From positions 1,426,001-1,490,000 of the forward strand of contig NZ_CP058335.1 in the NCBI RefSeq assembly GCF_013391105.1: a stretch of 64,000 nt of DNA, given 5' to 3'. Within the stretch, counting starts at the first letter, position 1; each line of letters opens with the position of its first letter. Under the pieces are notes generated by a model, which was given only the letters and a program-made list of their open reading frames with translations, had not been told where the DNA came from and searched no databases. Origin of the DNA: Natronomonas salina. GTDB lineage: Archaea; Halobacteriota; Halobacteria; Halobacteriales; Haloarculaceae. Below, in pieces: positions 43,970-51,722 of the stretch. The translations under genes were made by a program, and so were the position numbers.

Positions 43970-44517
43970 ACCGACAGATGTGCCGAGGGAACCCTGTCGG
44001 TTTCGGTGAGTGGCGAGCAGGCGGAACGGGAGCGTCGTGGGCGACAGAGCAGCCCGCGACGGCAAAGTGAACCGGCGGTCGTGTTCCGCGCTACGGCCTC
44101 GTCCGACCGCCGGCTGTGGTCAGATCACGGGCCGTCTGGGCGCGTCTTCAGTTATAAATCGTCGGTCGAGCAGAGCATCCGCGAGCGACCGGATGGCCCG
44201 CGAGGGAAGCGAGCGGAAGCGTTGGAAGCCGAGCGGTGCGCGGTTCGGAGCGACCGAAGGGAGCGAGAACCGCGGCACGCGAACGGCGAACGAAGTGAGC
44301 CGTGAGCGGAGGGAGTCCACCTGAGGGAGAGTACGGTTCTCGCTGGCGAGGCCGGAGGCCGAGCCAGCGTAGCGCCCGACGACTAACGCCGCGCGACCCC
44401 AGGGAGCGCGGCGGCTGAAGGAGGGCGCGCATATTTTCCCCACGTTTTTGCCCGACTGAGCGAGCGCCGCAGGCGCTCGCGAAGGAGGTGCAAAAAGTGG
44501 GCTAGAAGTGGGAGTTG
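43970..44517. repeat. Gene-free region with a cluster of hairpins; 11-base loops of shared sequence
   Basis: No convincing protein frame in 548 bases. Hairpins: CCGC/GCGG around loop GAGGGAAGCGA (44198-44216); CGCGGTTC/GAACCGCG with a 20-base loop (44239-44274); ACGGC/GCCGT around loop GAACGAAGTGA (44283-44303); CGCTGGC/GCCAGCG (44341-44369); and GCGAGCGCC/GGCGCTCGC with loop GCA (44460-44480). A TATA-like GTTATAAAT lies at about 44150-44158. Two more hairpins of the 11-base-loop type are at 51632-51690. Function unknown. Confidence 0.55.
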
Positions 44518-46215
44518 TCAGTCGTCCGCTGGCGCCGCACCGCCGCCGTCACCGACGTTGGCGTCCGGGACGGTGCCGTCGTCGTTCCAGCCGCGGAGGT
44601 CGTAGTAGTTCGAGAGCTCGTCGTCGAGGCCCTCCAGCTCGTAGGGGAGGGCGTCGTCGTCGGCGCGGTCGAAGCCGCGCTTGGAGTTGAAGTGCCGCTC
44701 GAGTTCGATGATCCGGCCGCCGACCTCCTGGAGCGTCTCCCAGTCGGTGTCGAACAGCGCCGCGTAGCGGTCGTGGTCCATACTGGAGAAGGCGAACTTA
44801 CAGAGGACGCCGGAGTCGTGGACGGCGTTCTTGTTCTCCATCTCGATGAGCCGGTCGGACTTGCCTGCGACGCCGTCGGAGTCCAGCGCCTGGTCGGGGG
44901 CGACCAGCGGGTACTCGAGCTGGTACATCTCGGCGTACATGTGGTCGGCGCCGCGGTTCGAGGTGGCGAAGGAGAGGCCCTGGCCGTTGAGCGTTCGGCC
45001 GTCGTGGGCGGCGAACTCCATGCCCTTCATCGTCCAGTTCTCGACGCCGAGCTCGTCGTGGAAGCGGTCGATGCCCTCCGCGAGCGTGTCGCCGACGCCC
45101 TCGCGGTAGGCGATCTGCTCGATGGTCTCGTGGATGAGGTCGACGTTGCCGAACTCGTCTTCGCTTGCGAGGTACGCGGAGACGACGTCGCCGCAGGAGA
45201 TGGTGTCCAGCCCGAGCTGGTCGCAGAGCTCGTTGGACTTCATGATGGCGACGAAGTCGTCGACGAGGGCGTTCGACCCGAAGCTCATCATCGTCTCGTA
45301 CTCCGGCCCCTCGGTCTCGAGGCCGGACTCCTCGTCGCGGGTGGGGAGCTTGCAGGCGAACGCGCAGGACGAGCAGGTGCCCTTCTTGTACTTGTGCTCG
45401 ATGACCGCGCCCGAGCCGATCTTGTCGATGTCGTCGAAGCGGAGCTCCTCGAAGTACTTCGTCGGGAGCGCGCCGACGGAGTTGGCGTAGTCGGAGACGG
45501 AGACGGTGCCGGCGTCCTTCATCGGGCTGCCGGACTCGGAGGCCTCCTTGTGGATCTCCATGACCAGTTCCTGGTCGATGCCCTCGATCTCGGGGCGGGA
45601 GTCGCCCTCGAAGGTGAGGAACTTGACGTTCTTCGCGCCGAGGACGGCCCCGAGGCCGCCGCGGCCGAACGCCCGCGACCCGGAGGTCATGATGGAGGCG
45701 AAGCGGACCTCGTTCTCCCCGGCGGGGCCGGTGACGGCGGTGTGCTCGCTGTCGAGGCCGTGCTCGGACTCGATGTAGTCGTTGGTCTCGCCGACGGTCG
45801 CCTCCTCGAGTTCGGGGACGGCCTCGAACTCGACGCCCTCGTCGGTGACGTGGACGCCGACCAGTTCGTCGCTGGCGCCCGTGATCTCGACGGCGGCGTA
45901 GCCGGTGTCGATGAACGGCCGGGACATGAAGCCGCCGGCGTTCGACGACAGCAGGCCGTCGGTCAGCGGCGAGAGGCCGGTACAGGACATCCGGCCGGTG
46001 TAGCTCATGATGGAGGTCTGCAGCGGGCCGGTCGCGAAGACCAGACTGTTCTCGGGACCGAGCGGGTCGGCGTCGAACGGGATGCGGTCGTGCGCGAGCT
46101 TCGTCCCCACGCCGCGGCCGCCGACGAACGTCTCCAGGACGTCGTCGATGGCCTCCTCGGCCGTCTCCTGTGCGCCGACGTCGATGGACAGCAGCGGGCC
46201 CTCCGTGTGTATCAT
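44518..46215 (-). CDS. aor: Tungsten-type aldehyde ferredoxin oxidoreductase
   Basis: Oxidises aldehydes to acids with ferredoxin, using a tungstopterin cofactor and a [4Fe-4S] cluster. 565 residues: MIHTEGPLLSIDVGAQETAE start, then FVGGRGVGTKLAHDRIPFDA and SIMSYTGRMSCTGLSPLTDG (pterin site), FGRGGLGAVLGAKNVKFLTF, the cluster cysteines in KKGTCSSCAFACKLPTR, GPEYETMMSFGSN, and LDTISCGDVVSAYLASEDEF with the fourth Cys. Archaeal AORs use it in peptide, sugar or formaldehyde metabolism; the real substrate is unknown. Acidic C-terminal tail with Gly repeat. Single-gene unit with its own TATA box. Confidence 0.9.
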   Translation of the reverse strand: MIHTEGPLLSIDVGAQETAEEAIDDVLETFVGGRGVGTKLAHDRIPFDADPLGPENSLVFATGPLQTSIMSYTGRMSCTGLSPLTDGLLSSNAGGFMSRPFIDTGYAAVEITGASDELVGVHVTDEGVEFEAVPELEEATVGETNDYIESEHGLDSEHTAVTGPAGENEVRFASIMTSGSRAFGRGGLGAVLGAKNVKFLTFEGDSRPEIEGIDQELVMEIHKEASESGSPMKDAGTVSVSDYANSVGALPTKYFEELRFDDIDKIGSGAVIEHKYKKGTCSSCAFACKLPTRDEESGLETEGPEYETMMSFGSNALVDDFVAIMKSNELCDQLGLDTISCGDVVSAYLASEDEFGNVDLIHETIEQIAYREGVGDTLAEGIDRFHDELGVENWTMKGMEFAAHDGRTLNGQGLSFATSNRGADHMYAEMYQLEYPLVAPDQALDSDGVAGKSDRLIEMENKNAVHDSGVLCKFAFSSMDHDRYAALFDTDWETLQEVGGRIIELERHFNSKRGFDRADDDALPYELEGLDDELSNYYDLRGWNDDGTVPDANVGDGGGAAPADD

Positions 46216-46244
46216 TGACGGTCGAATAGGCGTGGTCGTCGCCC

Positions 46245-46250
46245 TTAAAT
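46245..46250 (-). promoter_or_regulatory. TATA box of the aldehyde oxidoreductase gene
   Basis: ATTTAA on the minus strand, 30-35 bases before the ATG at 46215. A short distance also separates it from the end of the antiporter gene (46275), so this gap of 59 bases serves as both the antiporter 3' end and the oxidoreductase promoter. Confidence 0.55.
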
Positions 46251-46274
46251 CGTCTGCAACGGATGAGGGGTCGG

Positions 46275-48125
46275 TTAATCCCCGCGGACGAGCGCCATCG
46301 CCTCGCGGACGTCGTCCTGGTCGCCGACGAGCGTGACGTGGTCGCCCGTCTGGAGGACCTCCGTCGCCTCCGGGACGAACGTCTCGTCGTCGCGGGTGAG
46401 CAGGACGATGAGACAGCGACCGGGGAGCTCCGGGCCCACCTCGTTGAGCGGCCGCCCGACGAACGCCTCGTTGCCGAGCGTGACCTCCTGGACGTCGCCC
46501 TCCTCGCCGATGGTGCTGGACCAGCGGGCCATCGCCGGCCGCTCGATGGAGTCGTCGATGGCCTGGGCGGTCGCCAGCGTCGAGGAGATGGTGTCGACGC
46601 CGAGCTCCTCGAAGGCCTCGACGTTCTCGGGCTGGTTGACCCGGCAGATGATCCGCTCGACGTCGAACTTCGTCGACGCCAGCTGGCCGACCAGCAGGTT
46701 CGCGTCGTCGTCGCCGGTCGCCGCGACGACGGTCCGGGCGTTCTCGATGCCGGCCTCCCGGAGGGTGTCGATGGTGGTCCCGTCGCCGATGCGGACGGTG
46801 AACCCCTGCTGGCGGGCCTTCTCGACCGCTGCTTCGTCGCGCTCGATGATGACGACGTTCTCTCCCCTTTCTTCGAGGCGGGCGGCGACCTCGCGGCCGA
46901 CGCGCCCGCTGCCGATGATTATCACGCGCATTGGTATCACGTCCAGGTACTCCGCGACGTAGCGGGCGAGTCCGCCCTGCAGGACGACAGTCGAGAAGAT
47001 GACGAGGAAGACGGTGCCGACGAGCAGCGTCGCGTCCTCGCCGCGGCCCGCCGCCTGGAGCTCCACGGCGAACAGCGTGGCGACCGACGCGGGGATGATG
47101 CCGCGCGGGCCGACGAAGCCGACGAACAGCCGCTCGGCGGTCGTGAAGCCGCTCTCCATCGTCGAGACGTAGACGAGCAGCGGTCGGACGACGAAGGCGA
47201 CGGTGATGACGACGAGCAGTCCGCGGACGCCGAGCGAGATGAGGTCCTCGAACTCCAGCAGCGCCGCGAGCGCGATGAACACGAACGAGAGCACCACCAG
47301 CGTGATGTCGCCCTTGAAGTCCGCGATCTGCTCCTCGTACGGGATGTCGAGGTTGCCGAGGATGATGCCGGCGGTCGCGACGGCGGCGACGCCGGCCTCG
47401 CTGGCGATGGTGTCGGCGGCGCCGTAGGCGACGAGCGCCCCCGCCAGCGTCACGAGGCGGGCGTTCCGCGGCGCGTCGCCCGGCGAGAGGTCGATGTACC
47501 GGAGGACGAACCAGACGCCGCCGGCGACGATGACGCCGATCCCGATACCGGCCCCGACACGCTCGATGAACAGCGAGAAGAACGCGCCGACGGTCGGGTC
47601 GTCCAGCTGGATGACCTTGAACACCACGATGGCGAGGATGGCGGCGGTCACGTCGTTGACGATGCCCTCGGTCTCCAGGGCCGCCTGCACGCGGTCGCGG
47701 ACCGGGACGACCCGCAGGATGGGCGCGATGACGGTCGGCCCGGTCGCGATCAGCAACGACCCGACGAGGAAGGACATCCCCCAGGTCGCGCCCAGTTCGA
47801 AGCGGACGGCCAGCGCCGTCCCGACCAGCGAGATGAGCGCGCCGATGGTGACGAGCCGGACGCTCGCGCTCGTCGCCTGCTCGAGGTCCTCCTGCCGGAG
47901 GTGGAAGGCGCCCTCGAAGACGATGATGGCGACAGAGAGGCCGACGATGGCCGGCAGCGAGGCGAAGGAGTCCTCGGTGATGATGCTCAACCCCTCCGGA
48001 CCCAGGACGACCCCGGCGATCAGCAGGAAGACGATGCTCGGCACCTCGAAGCGGTCGGCGAGCAACTGCGCGGCGACGCCGATAGCGAGGATCGCCGCGG
48101 TCAGTGGGATCAGTTGGCTCGACAC
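46275..48125 (-). CDS. Cation:proton antiporter with C-terminal TrkA (RCK) domains
   Basis: 616-residue membrane exchanger for Na+ or K+ against H+. About 12 helices in residues 1-390 with the CPA motif VGSLLIATGPTVIAPILRVV and ETEGIVNDVTAAILAIVVFK. The TrkA-N (Rossmann) domain begins near residue 394, MRVIIIGSGRVGREVAARLE, with DGTTIDTLREAGIENARTVV, and a TrkA-C domain follows (NEVGPELPGRCLIVLLTRDD, TGDHVTLVGDQDDVREAM). The RCK domains sense nucleotide or cation and gate the antiporter, as in KefC-type systems. The transported ion is not certain. Confidence 0.88.
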   Translation of the reverse strand: MSSQLIPLTAAILAIGVAAQLLADRFEVPSIVFLLIAGVVLGPEGLSIITEDSFASLPAIVGLSVAIIVFEGAFHLRQEDLEQATSASVRLVTIGALISLVGTALAVRFELGATWGMSFLVGSLLIATGPTVIAPILRVVPVRDRVQAALETEGIVNDVTAAILAIVVFKVIQLDDPTVGAFFSLFIERVGAGIGIGVIVAGGVWFVLRYIDLSPGDAPRNARLVTLAGALVAYGAADTIASEAGVAAVATAGIILGNLDIPYEEQIADFKGDITLVVLSFVFIALAALLEFEDLISLGVRGLLVVITVAFVVRPLLVYVSTMESGFTTAERLFVGFVGPRGIIPASVATLFAVELQAAGRGEDATLLVGTVFLVIFSTVVLQGGLARYVAEYLDVIPMRVIIIGSGRVGREVAARLEERGENVVIIERDEAAVEKARQQGFTVRIGDGTTIDTLREAGIENARTVVAATGDDDANLLVGQLASTKFDVERIICRVNQPENVEAFEELGVDTISSTLATAQAIDDSIERPAMARWSSTIGEEGDVQEVTLGNEAFVGRPLNEVGPELPGRCLIVLLTRDDETFVPEATEVLQTGDHVTLVGDQDDVREAMALVRGD

Positions 48126-48212
48126 GCTGGCGACTTCACCGGACGGTGGTTCGAACAGCGGCCGAATAAATCCCCCTCACAGCGGTCGCCGGCGCCGTCG
48201 CGTCGCGGGCGG

Positions 48213-49121
48213 CTACTCGTCGGCCTCGCGTTCGTCGAGGTAGTGCAGGACGCCCCTGACGTTCATCGCCACCTCGCCGTCGGCCTTCTCGTCGCCCCAG
48301 ACCTCGTCGATGTCGTCCGACTCGACGAAGTGCTCGATGACGGCTTCGTCGTCGTCCAGTTCCGCCCGCTTCTCGGCGACGGCCTCGACCCACCGGGTGA
48401 TCACGTCGACGTACTCGCCGATGCGGCCGTCGGCCGGCACGTCGCCGAAGTGCGGGTAGCACAGCGTCTCCGGGTCGAGCCGGGCGATCATCCGGGCGTC
48501 GTCGACGACCTCCTCGAGGGTGAACCCCGGCGGCGGCGACGTCTCCCGGATGGCGTCGAGCGCGGGGACGTAGATGCCGGCGGCGTCGGCGACGAAGACC
48601 GCCTCCGAGGCCCGCTCGTGGAAGAGGACCTGGTGGAAGGCGTGGCCGGGCGCGTGGTAGACGTCGAGTTCGCGGTCGCCGAGGTCGACCGTCGCGCCGT
48701 CGTGGAACGGCTCGATGTCGGTCGCCGGGACCGGCTTCGGCTTCTCGTAGTGCTCGATCTGGTCGCCGACGGCCCGCTTCGTCCCCTCCCAGATGCCGTC
48801 GGGGTCGACGAGGAACTTCGAGCCGCTCTCGTGGACGTGGACCTCGGCGCCGGTCTCGGCCGCGATGAACCCCGCGCCGCCGGCGTGGTCGAGGTGGACG
48901 TGCGTCAGGGCGATCACCTCGAGGTCGTCGGGGGCGATGCCGACCTCGCGGAGGGCCTCGAGGATCAGCTCGTAGTTCGTGCCGATGCCGGCGTCGACGA
49001 TGGCCGGGCGCTCGGCGTCGAGGATGTAGACGGCGCCGTACTCCGGCGTGTCGAACATGCCGGTGTCGACGTAGTAGCAGTCCGGTACCCCCGCGACCGC
49101 GGAGACGTCGCCGATTCCCAT
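48213..49121 (-). CDS. Metallo-beta-lactamase-fold hydrolase
   Basis: 302-residue MBL-fold enzyme with a binuclear zinc site: HVHLDHAGG (residues about 75-83) gives the HxHxDH motif, then HAPGHAFHQVLF and the Asp in VFVADAAGIYVP; the His near LCYPHFGD is the last ligand. Family members include glyoxalase II and others; substrate unknown. The first part (GDVSAVAGVPDCYYVDTGMF) and an acidic C-terminus with DDIDEVWGDEKADGEVAM are haloarchaeal. A GTTTAC box lies 25-30 bases before the start. Confidence 0.85.
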   Translation of the reverse strand: MGIGDVSAVAGVPDCYYVDTGMFDTPEYGAVYILDAERPAIVDAGIGTNYELILEALREVGIAPDDLEVIALTHVHLDHAGGAGFIAAETGAEVHVHESGSKFLVDPDGIWEGTKRAVGDQIEHYEKPKPVPATDIEPFHDGATVDLGDRELDVYHAPGHAFHQVLFHERASEAVFVADAAGIYVPALDAIRETSPPPGFTLEEVVDDARMIARLDPETLCYPHFGDVPADGRIGEYVDVITRWVEAVAEKRAELDDDEAVIEHFVESDDIDEVWGDEKADGEVAMNVRGVLHYLDEREADE

Positions 49122-49145
49122 GGTGGTGGCAGGAGCCGAATCGAG

Positions 49146-49151
49146 GTAAAC
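49146..49151 (-). promoter_or_regulatory. TATA-like element of the MBL-fold gene
   Basis: GTTTAC on the minus strand, 25-30 bases before the ATG at 49121, consistent with a leaderless promoter. It lies in the 69-base gap between this gene and the end of the gene at 49191-50051. Confidence 0.5.
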
Positions 49152-49190
49152 TACGGGGTCGTGGCCCGCGCCGCCGGACGCGCCCGGCGC

Positions 49191-50051
49191 TCAGAAGGTG
49201 TTCTTGAGGGCGGTCCAGAGCTGGTTCTGGCGCTTCTGCAGGACCGTGACCGGGGAGGCGACGCTGTAGCTGCCGTCCTCGCGCTCCTCGGCGATGCCCT
49301 CGGCCTCGAAGTCCTCGAGCGTCGAGCGGACCGTCTCCTCGGTGAACACCGTCCGGCCGGCGACGGTCTCGGGGGTCGCGCCGCCGGGGCCCCGGACGGC
49401 GAGGTACACCGAGACGCGCTGGGGCGACTCCAGGACCTCGGTGAGCAGTTCGCCGACGATGCCGTCGCCGGCGTCGCGCTCGGAGACCGCCGTCCGCACC
49501 ATCTCGTCCTCGGTGAGCGGTTCGGCCGCCTCGAGGCCCTCCTCGAGCGCCTCGACGGCCGTCTTGCGGTTCTTCCCCGCCCGTTCGCGCTCAAGGAGGC
49601 GCTCGAAGGTCTCCGGTTCGCGGATGTCGGCTGCGAGGGCCTCGAGTTCGGCGACGGTCACGTCGGCCGGGTCGACGTCGACGAGGTCGTCCTCGGTGAT
49701 CTCGTCGTCGGTCGTGAAGCCGACCTCGCCGTAGCCCTCGACGCGGAGGTCGACGCCGAGTTCGTGGACGCCCAGTCGGAGCCGCTCGGTGTCGCAGATC
49801 AGCTGTACCCTCTCCGCGAGGTCGAGCCCCAGCGGGTCCTCGGGGGTGATCTCGTCGGCGGTGTAGCGCTCCGACTCCGACAGCTCCACGGTGACGTCCT
49901 CGGGCGGGACCGCCTCGCCGTCGAGCCGGACGGACGTGATCCCCTGGAACTCGGCCTCGACGAGGCGGTTCTTCAGCTCGAACTCGACGCCTCGCTCGGT
50001 GTTCTCGAGGCTCTCCCAGGTGAAGAGCCGCTCGAGGTACTGTTCGATCAT
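49191..50051 (-). CDS. Conserved haloarchaeal protein with C-terminal winged-helix-like region, unknown function
   Basis: 286 residues, acidic. The N-terminal domain (MIEQYLERLFTWESLENTER, then LVEAEFQGITSVRLDGEAVP and LGVHELGVDLRVEGYGEVGF) resembles the beta-sandwich DUF6379 pattern with a GE/DGE-V-P and a 'gvHelgVdl' segment, but I hold that loosely. A helical linker follows (LERERAGKNRKTAVEALEEG), then a short winged-helix-like end: FTEETVRSTLEDFEAEGIAE EREDGSYSVA. It could be a ligand-binding regulator. No catalytic motif. The gene is divergent from serS, with a 187-base gap between the two starts. Confidence 0.6.
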   Translation of the reverse strand: MIEQYLERLFTWESLENTERGVEFELKNRLVEAEFQGITSVRLDGEAVPPEDVTVELSESERYTADEITPEDPLGLDLAERVQLICDTERLRLGVHELGVDLRVEGYGEVGFTTDDEITEDDLVDVDPADVTVAELEALAADIREPETFERLLERERAGKNRKTAVEALEEGLEAAEPLTEDEMVRTAVSERDAGDGIVGELLTEVLESPQRVSVYLAVRGPGGATPETVAGRTVFTEETVRSTLEDFEAEGIAEEREDGSYSVASPVTVLQKRQNQLWTALKNTF

Positions 50052-50238
50052 GGTGGTGTGCTACGGTCCACCGCACTTCGTTCTGTCGCCAACTGGACGA
50101 ACATTACTCGGGGTTTATCCCGGGCTGGTTGCGGCTTCCCTGCAGCGCCATGAGAGCGGCTATCCGGTCGCCCGACGGGCCTGAAGGCCTCACACGCGAC
50201 CGACACGACTTTGCCCGGGAGGGGCGAACCGCCGGCAA

Positions 50239-51612
50239 ATGCTATCGAGGCAGTTCGTCAGGGAGAACCCCGACGAGGTCCGTCGCGCCCTCGACACGAA
50301 GGGCGTCGACGTGGACCTCGACCGGATCCTCGAGATCGACGAGGAGTGGCGCGACCTCAAGGCCGAGGGCGACGGCCTCCGACACGAGCGCAACGAGGTC
50401 TCCAGCGAGATCGGCGAGCTCAAGCGCGAGGGGGAGGAGGAGGCGGCCCAGGAGGCCATCGAGCGCTCCCAGGAACTGAAGGAGGAACTCGAGGCCGTCG
50501 AGAAGCGCGCCGACGAACTGGAGGCGGAACTGGAGGAGAAGCTCCTCGAACTGCCGAACGTCCCCCACCCGGACGCCCCGGTCGGCGACGACGAGTCCGA
50601 CAACGTCGAGGTCGACCGCTGGGGGTTCGACGGCCGCCGCGAACTCCCCGACGAGGTCGTCCCGCACTACGACCTCGGCGAGCAACTGGAGATCCTGGAC
50701 TTCGAGCGCGGCGCGAAGGTCTCCGGCGGCGGCTTCTACTTCGCGAAGGGCGAGGGCGCCCGCCTCGAGCACGCCCTCGTGCAGTACATGCTCGAACTCC
50801 ACCGCGAGGAGCACGACTACGTCGACGTCTTCCCGCCGCTGCCGGTCAACTCGGCGTCGATGCGCGGCACCGGCCAGTTCCCGAAGTTCGTCGACGACGC
50901 CTACCGCATCGGCGGCGCCAACGACGAGGACTACGACGACGACGACCTGTGGCTGCTCCCCACGGCGGAGGTGCCGGTCACCAACATGTACCGCGACGAG
51001 ATCCTGCTGGACGAGGACCTCCCGCTGAAGCACCAGGCCTACTCGCCGAACTTCCGCCGGGAGGCCGGCGAGCACGGCACGGAGACCCGCGGCATCGTCC
51101 GCGTCCACCAGTTCAACAAGGTCGAGATGGTGAACTTCGTCCGGCCGGAGGAGAGCTACGACCGCCTGGAGGGACTGCTCGGCGAGGCCACCGAGGTCCT
51201 CGAACGGCTCGGTCTCCCTTACCGCGTCCTCGAGATGTGCACCGGCGACATGGGCTTCACGCAGGCGAAGAAGTACGACGTCGAGGTGTGGGCGCCGGGC
51301 GACGACATGGACGAGGGCCCCGAGGAGGGCGGCCGCTGGCTCGAGGTCTCGTCGGTGTCGAACTTCGAGGACTTCCAGGCCCGGCGGGCCGGTATCCAGT
51401 ACCGGCCGGAACAGCACGAGTCCGCGGAGTACGTCCACACGCTGAACGGCTCGGGGCTGGCCGTCCCGCGGGTCGTCGTCGCCGTCCTCGAGTACTACCA
51501 GAACGACGACGGTACCGTCGTCGTTCCCGAGCCGCTCCAGCCCTACATGGGCGGGACGGAGGTCATCGAGGGGCAGGATTCGGTCGGGGAGTCGGCGCTC
51601 GGGGAGCAGTAG
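50239..51612 (+). CDS. serS: Seryl-tRNA synthetase
   Basis: Charges tRNA-Ser. 457 residues: the N-terminal antiparallel coiled coil (MLSRQFVRENPDEVRRALDT to about residue 110) binds the long variable arm; then class II motif 1 region, motif 2 FRREAGEHGTETRGIVRVHQ with FNKVEMVNFVRPEESYDRLE, and motif 3 YVHTLNGSGLAVPRVVVAVL. VSSVSNFEDFQARRAGIQYR completes the Ser/AMP site. This is the standard type rather than the methanogen type. The coiled coil carries extra acidic residues. Apparently its own transcription unit; only a weak TATA match was seen. Confidence 0.95.
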   Translation: MLSRQFVRENPDEVRRALDTKGVDVDLDRILEIDEEWRDLKAEGDGLRHERNEVSSEIGELKREGEEEAAQEAIERSQELKEELEAVEKRADELEAELEEKLLELPNVPHPDAPVGDDESDNVEVDRWGFDGRRELPDEVVPHYDLGEQLEILDFERGAKVSGGGFYFAKGEGARLEHALVQYMLELHREEHDYVDVFPPLPVNSASMRGTGQFPKFVDDAYRIGGANDEDYDDDDLWLLPTAEVPVTNMYRDEILLDEDLPLKHQAYSPNFRREAGEHGTETRGIVRVHQFNKVEMVNFVRPEESYDRLEGLLGEATEVLERLGLPYRVLEMCTGDMGFTQAKKYDVEVWAPGDDMDEGPEEGGRWLEVSSVSNFEDFQARRAGIQYRPEQHESAEYVHTLNGSGLAVPRVVVAVLEYYQNDDGTVVVPEPLQPYMGGTEVIEGQDSVGESALGEQ

Positions 51613-51631
51613 CCGAGGGTCGGAGGGAGCG

Positions 51632-51690
51632 CGAGACTCCGAGCGCAGCGAGGAGTCTCGGAACGGCGAACGGCGAGCGAAGCGAGCCGT
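51632..51690. repeat. Two further hairpins with 11-base GARCGMAGYGA-type loops after serS
   Basis: CGAGACTCC/GGAGTCTCG around loop GAGCGCAGCGA (51632-51660) and ACGGC/GCCGT around loop GAGCGAAGCGA (51670-51690). They lie in the serS/zinc-ribbon convergent gap. The loops match those at 44202-44212 and 44288-44298 closely, so this is a dispersed family. Confidence 0.7.
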
Positions 51691-51722
51691 GAGCGAACGG
51701 AACGAACAGAATACCGCGTTCT

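Follow-up and report, generated by a model that had tools for sequence, protein, structure and literature searches.

Some genes of salt-loving archaea end in large elements built of hairpins that obey a common sequence grammar, and two such elements lie in the 64-kb stretch of the Natronomonas salina genome analysed here (contig NZ_CP058335.1, positions 1,426,001 to 1,490,000; "the window" means this whole stretch). One, of class I (44174-44501), ends beside the stop codon of an aldehyde oxidoreductase gene (aor); the other, of class II (51613-51699), follows the stop codon of serS. We tentatively interpret class I as a self-contained bidirectional 3′-boundary module, terminator and insulator in one, with class II doing a related job. 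The first-pass annotation of this DNA had listed four separate, dispersed hairpins with a common 11-base loop, GARSGMAGYGA, which are instead pieces of these two larger elements; its interpretation was right in spirit but too small, and is partly supported.

The four motif loops are present at 44202, 44288, 51641 and 51675, with arms of 4, 5, 9 and 5 bp, and the window holds just one further match to GARSGMAGYGA, with an arm of 1 bp. The motif is common to all four hairpins, but what had been taken for a loop is largely helix. Read position by position it is GA - N1 C - GNA - G N1′ - GA: a GA/GA mismatch, a 2-bp inner stem that covaries (GC/GC, CC/GG, AC/GT) and a GNA triloop on a closing C-G pair. 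The longer variants that had been singled out also exist; they keep the GA/GA rule and have either a lengthened inner stem or a second GA/GA step (Table 1). In 1.26 Mb of host-genome stretches sampled for motif counts, with genes called by our own codon-usage script and no standard gene finder, arms of at least 4 bp flank 18 of the 38 intergenic matches (slid-partner control, ~0.8) and none of the 26 coding ones. Hairpins of the full grammar are intergenic in 50 of 54 cases, as had been proposed for the original four, though coding DNA makes up 86% of the sequence. Pairing is constrained while sequence is free to vary, which bears out the view of a structural element as opposed to simple repetition; the outcome that the first-pass annotation had named as refuting that view, a motif equally frequent inside genes or no commoner with complementary flanks, is not what the counts show.

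When hairpins with a 3-nt tip, an inner stem of at least 2 bp, a 2x2 mismatch and an outer stem of at least 5 bp are listed, GA/GA is the commonest mismatch class, with 66 cases (runner-up, 15); at an outer stem of at least 7 bp the counts are 40 for GA/GA and 3 for the next class. The grammar is seen 49 times in host intergenic DNA, against a mean of 0.075 in 40 dinucleotide shuffles (maximum 1). Across 2.28 Mb of mostly haloarchaeal DNA, 234 grammar hairpins carry the tips GAA (99), GGA (70), GCA (36) and GTA (29), closed by C-G in 213; the inner pair is G-C in 85, C-G in 49, A-T in 48 and T-A in none, and the pair outside the GA is C-G in 201 and T-A in 18. This variety of inner pairs with pairing retained amounts to covariation within the supposed loop. 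These preferences are similar to the known stability rules of tandem sheared G.A pairs. They also resemble those of d(GCGNAGC) DNA mini-hairpins, in which a GNA loop sits on at least two G-C pairs (PMC4686876), as the tips here sit on at least two mostly G-C pairs and are C-G closed; the mini-hairpins are synthetic DNA, whereas ours form a recurrent genomic motif joined with tandem G.A pairs. The in vivo role of both structures has so far been mostly a test-tube question, and the grammar offers a concrete, countable sequence rule for the folding of DNA (or RNA) in living cells. A further hairpin, GGAAGAC-GAGCGGAGCGA-GTCTTCC, occurs at host positions 166976 and 167334 in repeated fragments that resemble a tRNA 3′ end, near tRNA-like sequence.

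In the hairpin clusters, variable hairpins are separated by conserved linkers. The class I consensus is AGCAT-[P1]-TTC(A)-[P2]-optional arm TAGCG..P5/P3..GCGCATA-TTTT(T)CCCCA(A/C)GTTTTTGC-[P4]-GCAAAAAGTGGG, or in short AGCAT-P1-TTC-P2-[P5/P3]-TTTTCCCCACGTTTTTGC-P4-GCAAAAAGTGGG. Its linker 18-mer TTTTCCCCAMGTTTTTGC is found, with up to 3 mismatches, at 31 places in the host genome, where the reversed control finds none, and the genome holds about 30 class I copies. The energy-predicted + strand fold of the window copy gives this architecture, with the 5′ arm enlarged by extra hairpins. With P1 picked by its anchors alone, the fraction of copies with a Watson-Crick pair is 0.88 at pair 4, 0.68 at pair 5 and 0.69 at pair 8, where shuffles reach at most 0.71, 0.49 and 0.54, and pairs 5-6, where not Watson-Crick, are mainly G.A or A.G. 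The basal pairs of P5 are 92-100% paired over 26 copies, and one pair further in switches from G-C to A-T. The basal helix, too, is paired differently from group to group, as CCCC..GGGG or CCGC..GCGG, and copies at thermosome ends have GCACGTTTTGC..GGCAAAACCTGC and GACCTTTTACG..CGGTAAAAGGTC. In two related genomes (G044 and G073), four copies stand at the same genes with their stems replaced. Two apparent orthologues (L112 in G037, L113 in G049) have P1, P2 and P4 in common and differ in their P5/P3 arms, suggesting arm exchange between copies. In another pair of genomes (G001 and G007), P4 hairpins with nearly the same stems are tipped by GAA, GGA, GCA or GTA and also by TTC, TCC or TGC; any base is allowed in the middle, and inverted tips occur, as though the ends of the palindromes could flip.

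Class I copies are usually placed at stop codons. The AAAAAGTGG end lies 0-10 nt from the stop codon of an opposing gene in 87 of 125 copies; a recount from the A-run puts the stop 4-11 nt away in 105 of 156, and in a distant family it stands within 11 nt in 35 of 45. In the sense of the opposing gene the order is stop, 0-6 nt, then CCCACTTTTTGC, so that class I runs antisense to the gene at whose stop it lies and presents that gene, usually 4-11 nt after its stop, with the T-run CCCACTTTTT, as in archaeal T-stretch terminators. T5 this near a stop is rare without the element. The adjoining stops are TAA (49), TAG (41) and TGA (15), while TGA usage is 61% in the host genome, a figure for the host alone. 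Convergent genes can each own one copy, head to head; where the flanking genes are in tandem, the hairpins are antisense 19 times and sense 10 times. A sense-strand 3′-untranslated-region (3′-UTR) terminator hairpin was rejected as an account of all copies, since the hairpins occur in both orientations and class I runs antisense to the adjoining gene. The adjacent genes recur across genera; going by names that we assigned to the sequences, they presumably encode thermosome (9 times), Ndh (5), FabG (4), acyl-CoA dehydrogenase, methylmalonyl-CoA mutase, RadA, PsmB, NuoI and DnaJ.

Perfect-stem tips in element orientation are GNA in 68 cases and TNC in 6, every GNA tip being closed by C-G, and P4, which lies past the T-run, behaves like P1 and P2. 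This bias, P4 included, implies that one strand of the whole module is constrained. GNA and TNC make up 45% of triloops in intergenic DNA and 9% in coding DNA, and the long intergenic hairpins include 1 GNRA and 0 UNCG tetraloops. The AT profile upstream of AGCAT is flat over 58 copies, with no TATA peak, and a noncoding RNA with its own promoter was therefore rejected; the window copy, with a TATA box in front of it, departs from this pattern. G.U pairs are ~1% of all pairs, with an inconsistent strand asymmetry. The absent promoter signal, the scarcity of G.U and the use of GNA tips rather than GNRA or UNCG favour, without proving, a DNA fold: it is the purine strand that folds, probably at the DNA level.

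Class II shares the hairpins and not the linkers. The serS copy is a chain of GA/GNA hairpins, and among 28 readable genomes the thermosome 3′ ends carry class I, class I variants, class II or nothing, in alternation; within one genus (g3), the same thermosome stop has class II in two genomes and class I in one. Several g3 genomes have the class II stem GAGGGGCC/GGCCCTC at the stop of an apparent second thermosome gene, identified by coordinates; at the same apparent site two others have GAGGTTCC/GGAACCTC or GAGGTTC/GAACCTC, which on these sequences is compensatory replacement at one position. A search for class II by TARGCGAGG..CCTCG was unspecific, with counts equal to the reversed control, though single true matches are visible.

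The pattern GTTTTTN{22,52}AAAAAGTGG matches 39 of 141 Halobacteria genomes in 21 of 57 genera, with up to 30 copies, although a few single matches may be chance; carriers include Natronomonas, Haloarcula, Halorientalis, Halosimplex, Halobacterium, Halococcus and Salinibaculum. Outside Halobacteria its matches are at control level and not palindromic, and bacterial matches of the TTTTCCCCAMGTTTTTGC 18-mer were taken as chance. Three viral contigs contain TTTTCCCCAMGTTTTTGC exactly. At four loci, one at G069:C1:700600-704600, one in G058 and two in the host, a gene's last codons and the element are duplicated in tandem; each copy begins anew directly behind AAAAAGTGG, which points to replication slippage or switching there.

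The placement at stop codons, the T-runs and the unusually stable, DNA-type hairpin tips together make it probable that the elements mark the ends of genes and affect transcription arriving from either side. The transcript of one gene would meet the T-run CCCAC-TTTTT a few nucleotides past its stop and end there, and transcription from the other side, from a convergent gene or as antisense noise, would meet TTTT(T)CCCCA-GTTTTT (TTTTTCCCCA-GTTTTT) after P1/P2 (and P5/P3). The purine strand, its helices interrupted by tandem sheared G.A pairs and ending in C-GNA-G triloops, would fold, probably as DNA in an extruded hairpin or cruciform, and the fold would block or pause polymerases and so insulate the two genes. 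Class II would have a related role on the sense strand, immediately behind the stop codon. Termination is proposed by analogy with T-runs as a known archaeal signal, a T-stretch having terminated at 95% in a Haloferax volcanii reporter (PMC7237163). The constraint on structure, seen in the anchor-only covariation of P1 and in compensatory replacement at orthologous stops, supports a boundary function, as do the recurrence of the adjacent genes across genera, the alternation of class I, its variants and class II at one thermosome stop and the head-to-head copies of convergent genes. The wider generalization, which we hold a little less firmly, would be that haloarchaea possess distinct DNA-structured gene-end elements at stops, in which one strand is selected to fold as DNA, which serve as bidirectional terminator and insulator, and whose stems are rewritten by compensatory change or arm exchange while the fold is kept. 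Large structured 3′-end modules would then stand at housekeeping genes in organisms whose terminators are described as T-stretches.

Several observations weigh against such a boundary module. The T-run of the window copy lies 16 nt after the stop, further than usual. Past the first T-run most of the module would be in neither mRNA, so termination alone leaves its size and P4 unexplained. The counts of G.U versus A.C are small and contradictory (9:3 in P1+P2, 12:25 in P4). Neither window copy, at aor or at serS, is present in congeners, in a comparison that gave no alignable empty-site junction, and no single copy is therefore indispensable.

The main rival, in our estimate a doubtful one, is a miniature mobile element moving as folded single-stranded DNA in the manner of repetitive extragenic palindromes and bacterial interspersed mosaic elements (REP/BIME) or of the IS605-related palindrome-associated transposable elements (PATEs). 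An enzyme acting in trans would recognise the AGCAT-hairpin and hairpin-GTGGG ends, and insertion beside stops would be either targeted or simply what survives. Sharp ends, many dispersed copies, the absences at aor and serS, a folded strand with DNA-type C-GNA-G tips and the tandem duplications joined after AAAAAGTGG all fit such an element, and a TAR-like target would give the 90 of 105 stops that are TAA or TAG. Terminal inverted repeats, however, are not seen and insertion junctions are not alignable; the 0-10 nt spacing and the recurrence at the same genes are unexpected under random insertion, and within one genome almost every stem differs between copies. No Y1_Tnp match was found in G044 (19 copies), G073 (26), G039 (7) or G086 (6), some of which are draft assemblies, and the REP/PATE route is weakened by element-rich genomes of this kind. 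Insertion into pre-existing T-stretch terminators was rejected because T5 near stops is rare where the element is absent. Movement as single-stranded DNA may account for the spread of the module.

Structured RNA made from the purine strand, whether noncoding or in an mRNA 3′-UTR, is unlikely. The covarying multi-arm fold with conserved unpaired linkers does resemble an RNA family, G.U outnumbers A.C in P1+P2 and class II follows stops on the sense strand; yet the asymmetry is reversed in P4, and the rarity of G.U, the missing AT peak before AGCAT, the GNA-tipped long hairpins, the antisense majority at tandem genes and the lack of an Rfam match all argue the other way. We consider it very improbable that the elements are DNA-topology sites at transcription-unit ends, bound like BIME-2 by gyrase or by another protein: copies at the 3′ ends of housekeeping genes, often convergent, and DNA-type hairpins would suit such a site, but the T-runs and the close stop spacing would be left unexplained.

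Rfam 15 gave no match in the window at gathering score (best E-value over the element, 8.4), and no published description of the family was found in the open-access literature; it is widespread in salt-loving archaea and apparently undescribed. The family is kin in kind to REP/BIME and to haloarchaeal PATEs but lacks some of their tested features, and we file it with dispersed gene-end palindromic elements. Like REP/BIME it consists of dispersed intergenic hairpins in many copies at gene 3′ ends, sometimes in composite arrays, and some REP/BIME repeats are no more than 15 nt from a stop codon (PMC12306157). REP/BIME families have one short (20-40 nt) consensus each and a genome-associated Y1/RAYT transposase; here stems differ, linkers and tip grammar alone are common, the hairpins are joined by conserved linkers, follow a GA/GA and C-GNA-G grammar and have built-in T-runs, and the four element-carrying genomes named above have no Y1_Tnp match. 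PATEs of Haloquadratum walsbyi are IS605-related, non-coding, with near-terminal palindromes and no terminal inverted repeats (PMC3119063). Class I is likewise haloarchaeal and non-coding, with P1 immediately following AGCAT, P4 immediately preceding the 3′ end and ends that are not inverted copies; unlike PATEs, for which stop-codon placement and stem diversity are undescribed, it occurs in carriers without Y1_Tnp. By eye, the single Y1 locus of the host (1761836-1762183) has no AGCAT-P1 or P4-GTGGG ends nearby; this transposase gene adjoins an apparent tnpB gene. Haloarchaeal T-stretch terminators have a T-run shortly past the stop, with optional simple hairpins upstream of some 3′ ends (PMC7237163), whereas the T-run of the present elements is a component of a folded module 150-330 nt long. 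Sponge-mitochondrial repetitive hairpin-forming elements are similar in that structurally divergent, scattered hairpins invade intergenic regions; the genomes are unrelated, and the abstract describes no stop-codon rule or linker consensus (PMC2800124).

Table 1. Features of the class I and class II elements in the window.
Feature	Position	Strand	Basis or remark
Class I element, whole (AGCAT ... GCAAAAAGTGGG)	44174..44501	+	linkers common to ~30 genomic copies; predicted + strand fold
Class I 5′ part: AGCAT, P1 position enlarged by extra branched hairpins, TTCT linker	44174..44340	+	compared with simple copies L081, L085, L089
Hairpin CCGC-GAGGGAAGCGA-GCGG, first of the original four	44198..44216	+	inner pair G-G unpaired; weakest of the four
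Longer hairpin, two GA/GA steps, GAA tip	44241..44272	+	sequence and predicted fold
Hairpin ACGGC-GAACGAAGTGA-GCCGT	44283..44303	+	motif and grammar search
P2: CGCTGGC-GA-GGCC-GGA-GGCC-GA-GCCAGCG	44341..44369	+	motif and grammar search
P5/P3 arm: GCGCCC..GGGCGC around hairpin 44387-44413	44372..44428	+	basal pairs 92-100% paired, 26 copies
T-run linker TTTTCCCCACGTTTTTGC, 5′ side of basal P4 helix	44434..44451	+	31 sites in the genome; none with the reversed control
P4 hairpin: GACTGA/GAAGGAG internal loop (GA-CU-GA : GA-AG-GA), GCA tip	44452..44489	+	sequence and predicted fold
GCAAAAAGTGGG, element 3′ end; - strand reads CCCACTTTTTGC	44490..44501	+	16 nt past aldehyde oxidoreductase stop (44518-44520)
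Class II element: sense-strand hairpin chain straight after serS stop	51613..51699	+	
Hairpin CGAGACTCC-GAGCGCAGCGA-GGAGTCTCG	51632..51660	+	identical copy at host 2404853
Hairpin GC-GA-ACGGC-GA-GC-GAA-GC-GA-GCCGT-GA-GC	51667..51694	+	motif search and predicted fold

A GC-rich conserved block that reads on the - strand (44017-44160) adjoins the class I element; it has a sequence resembling a TATA box, TTATAAAT, on the + strand. It resembles a small noncoding RNA gene, with no Rfam match. At the aor locus of congeners (L301-L306) the block is present without the hairpins, and it recurs before another copy in the host (~2473580) and at four loci in other genera (L110, L116, L224 and L256).

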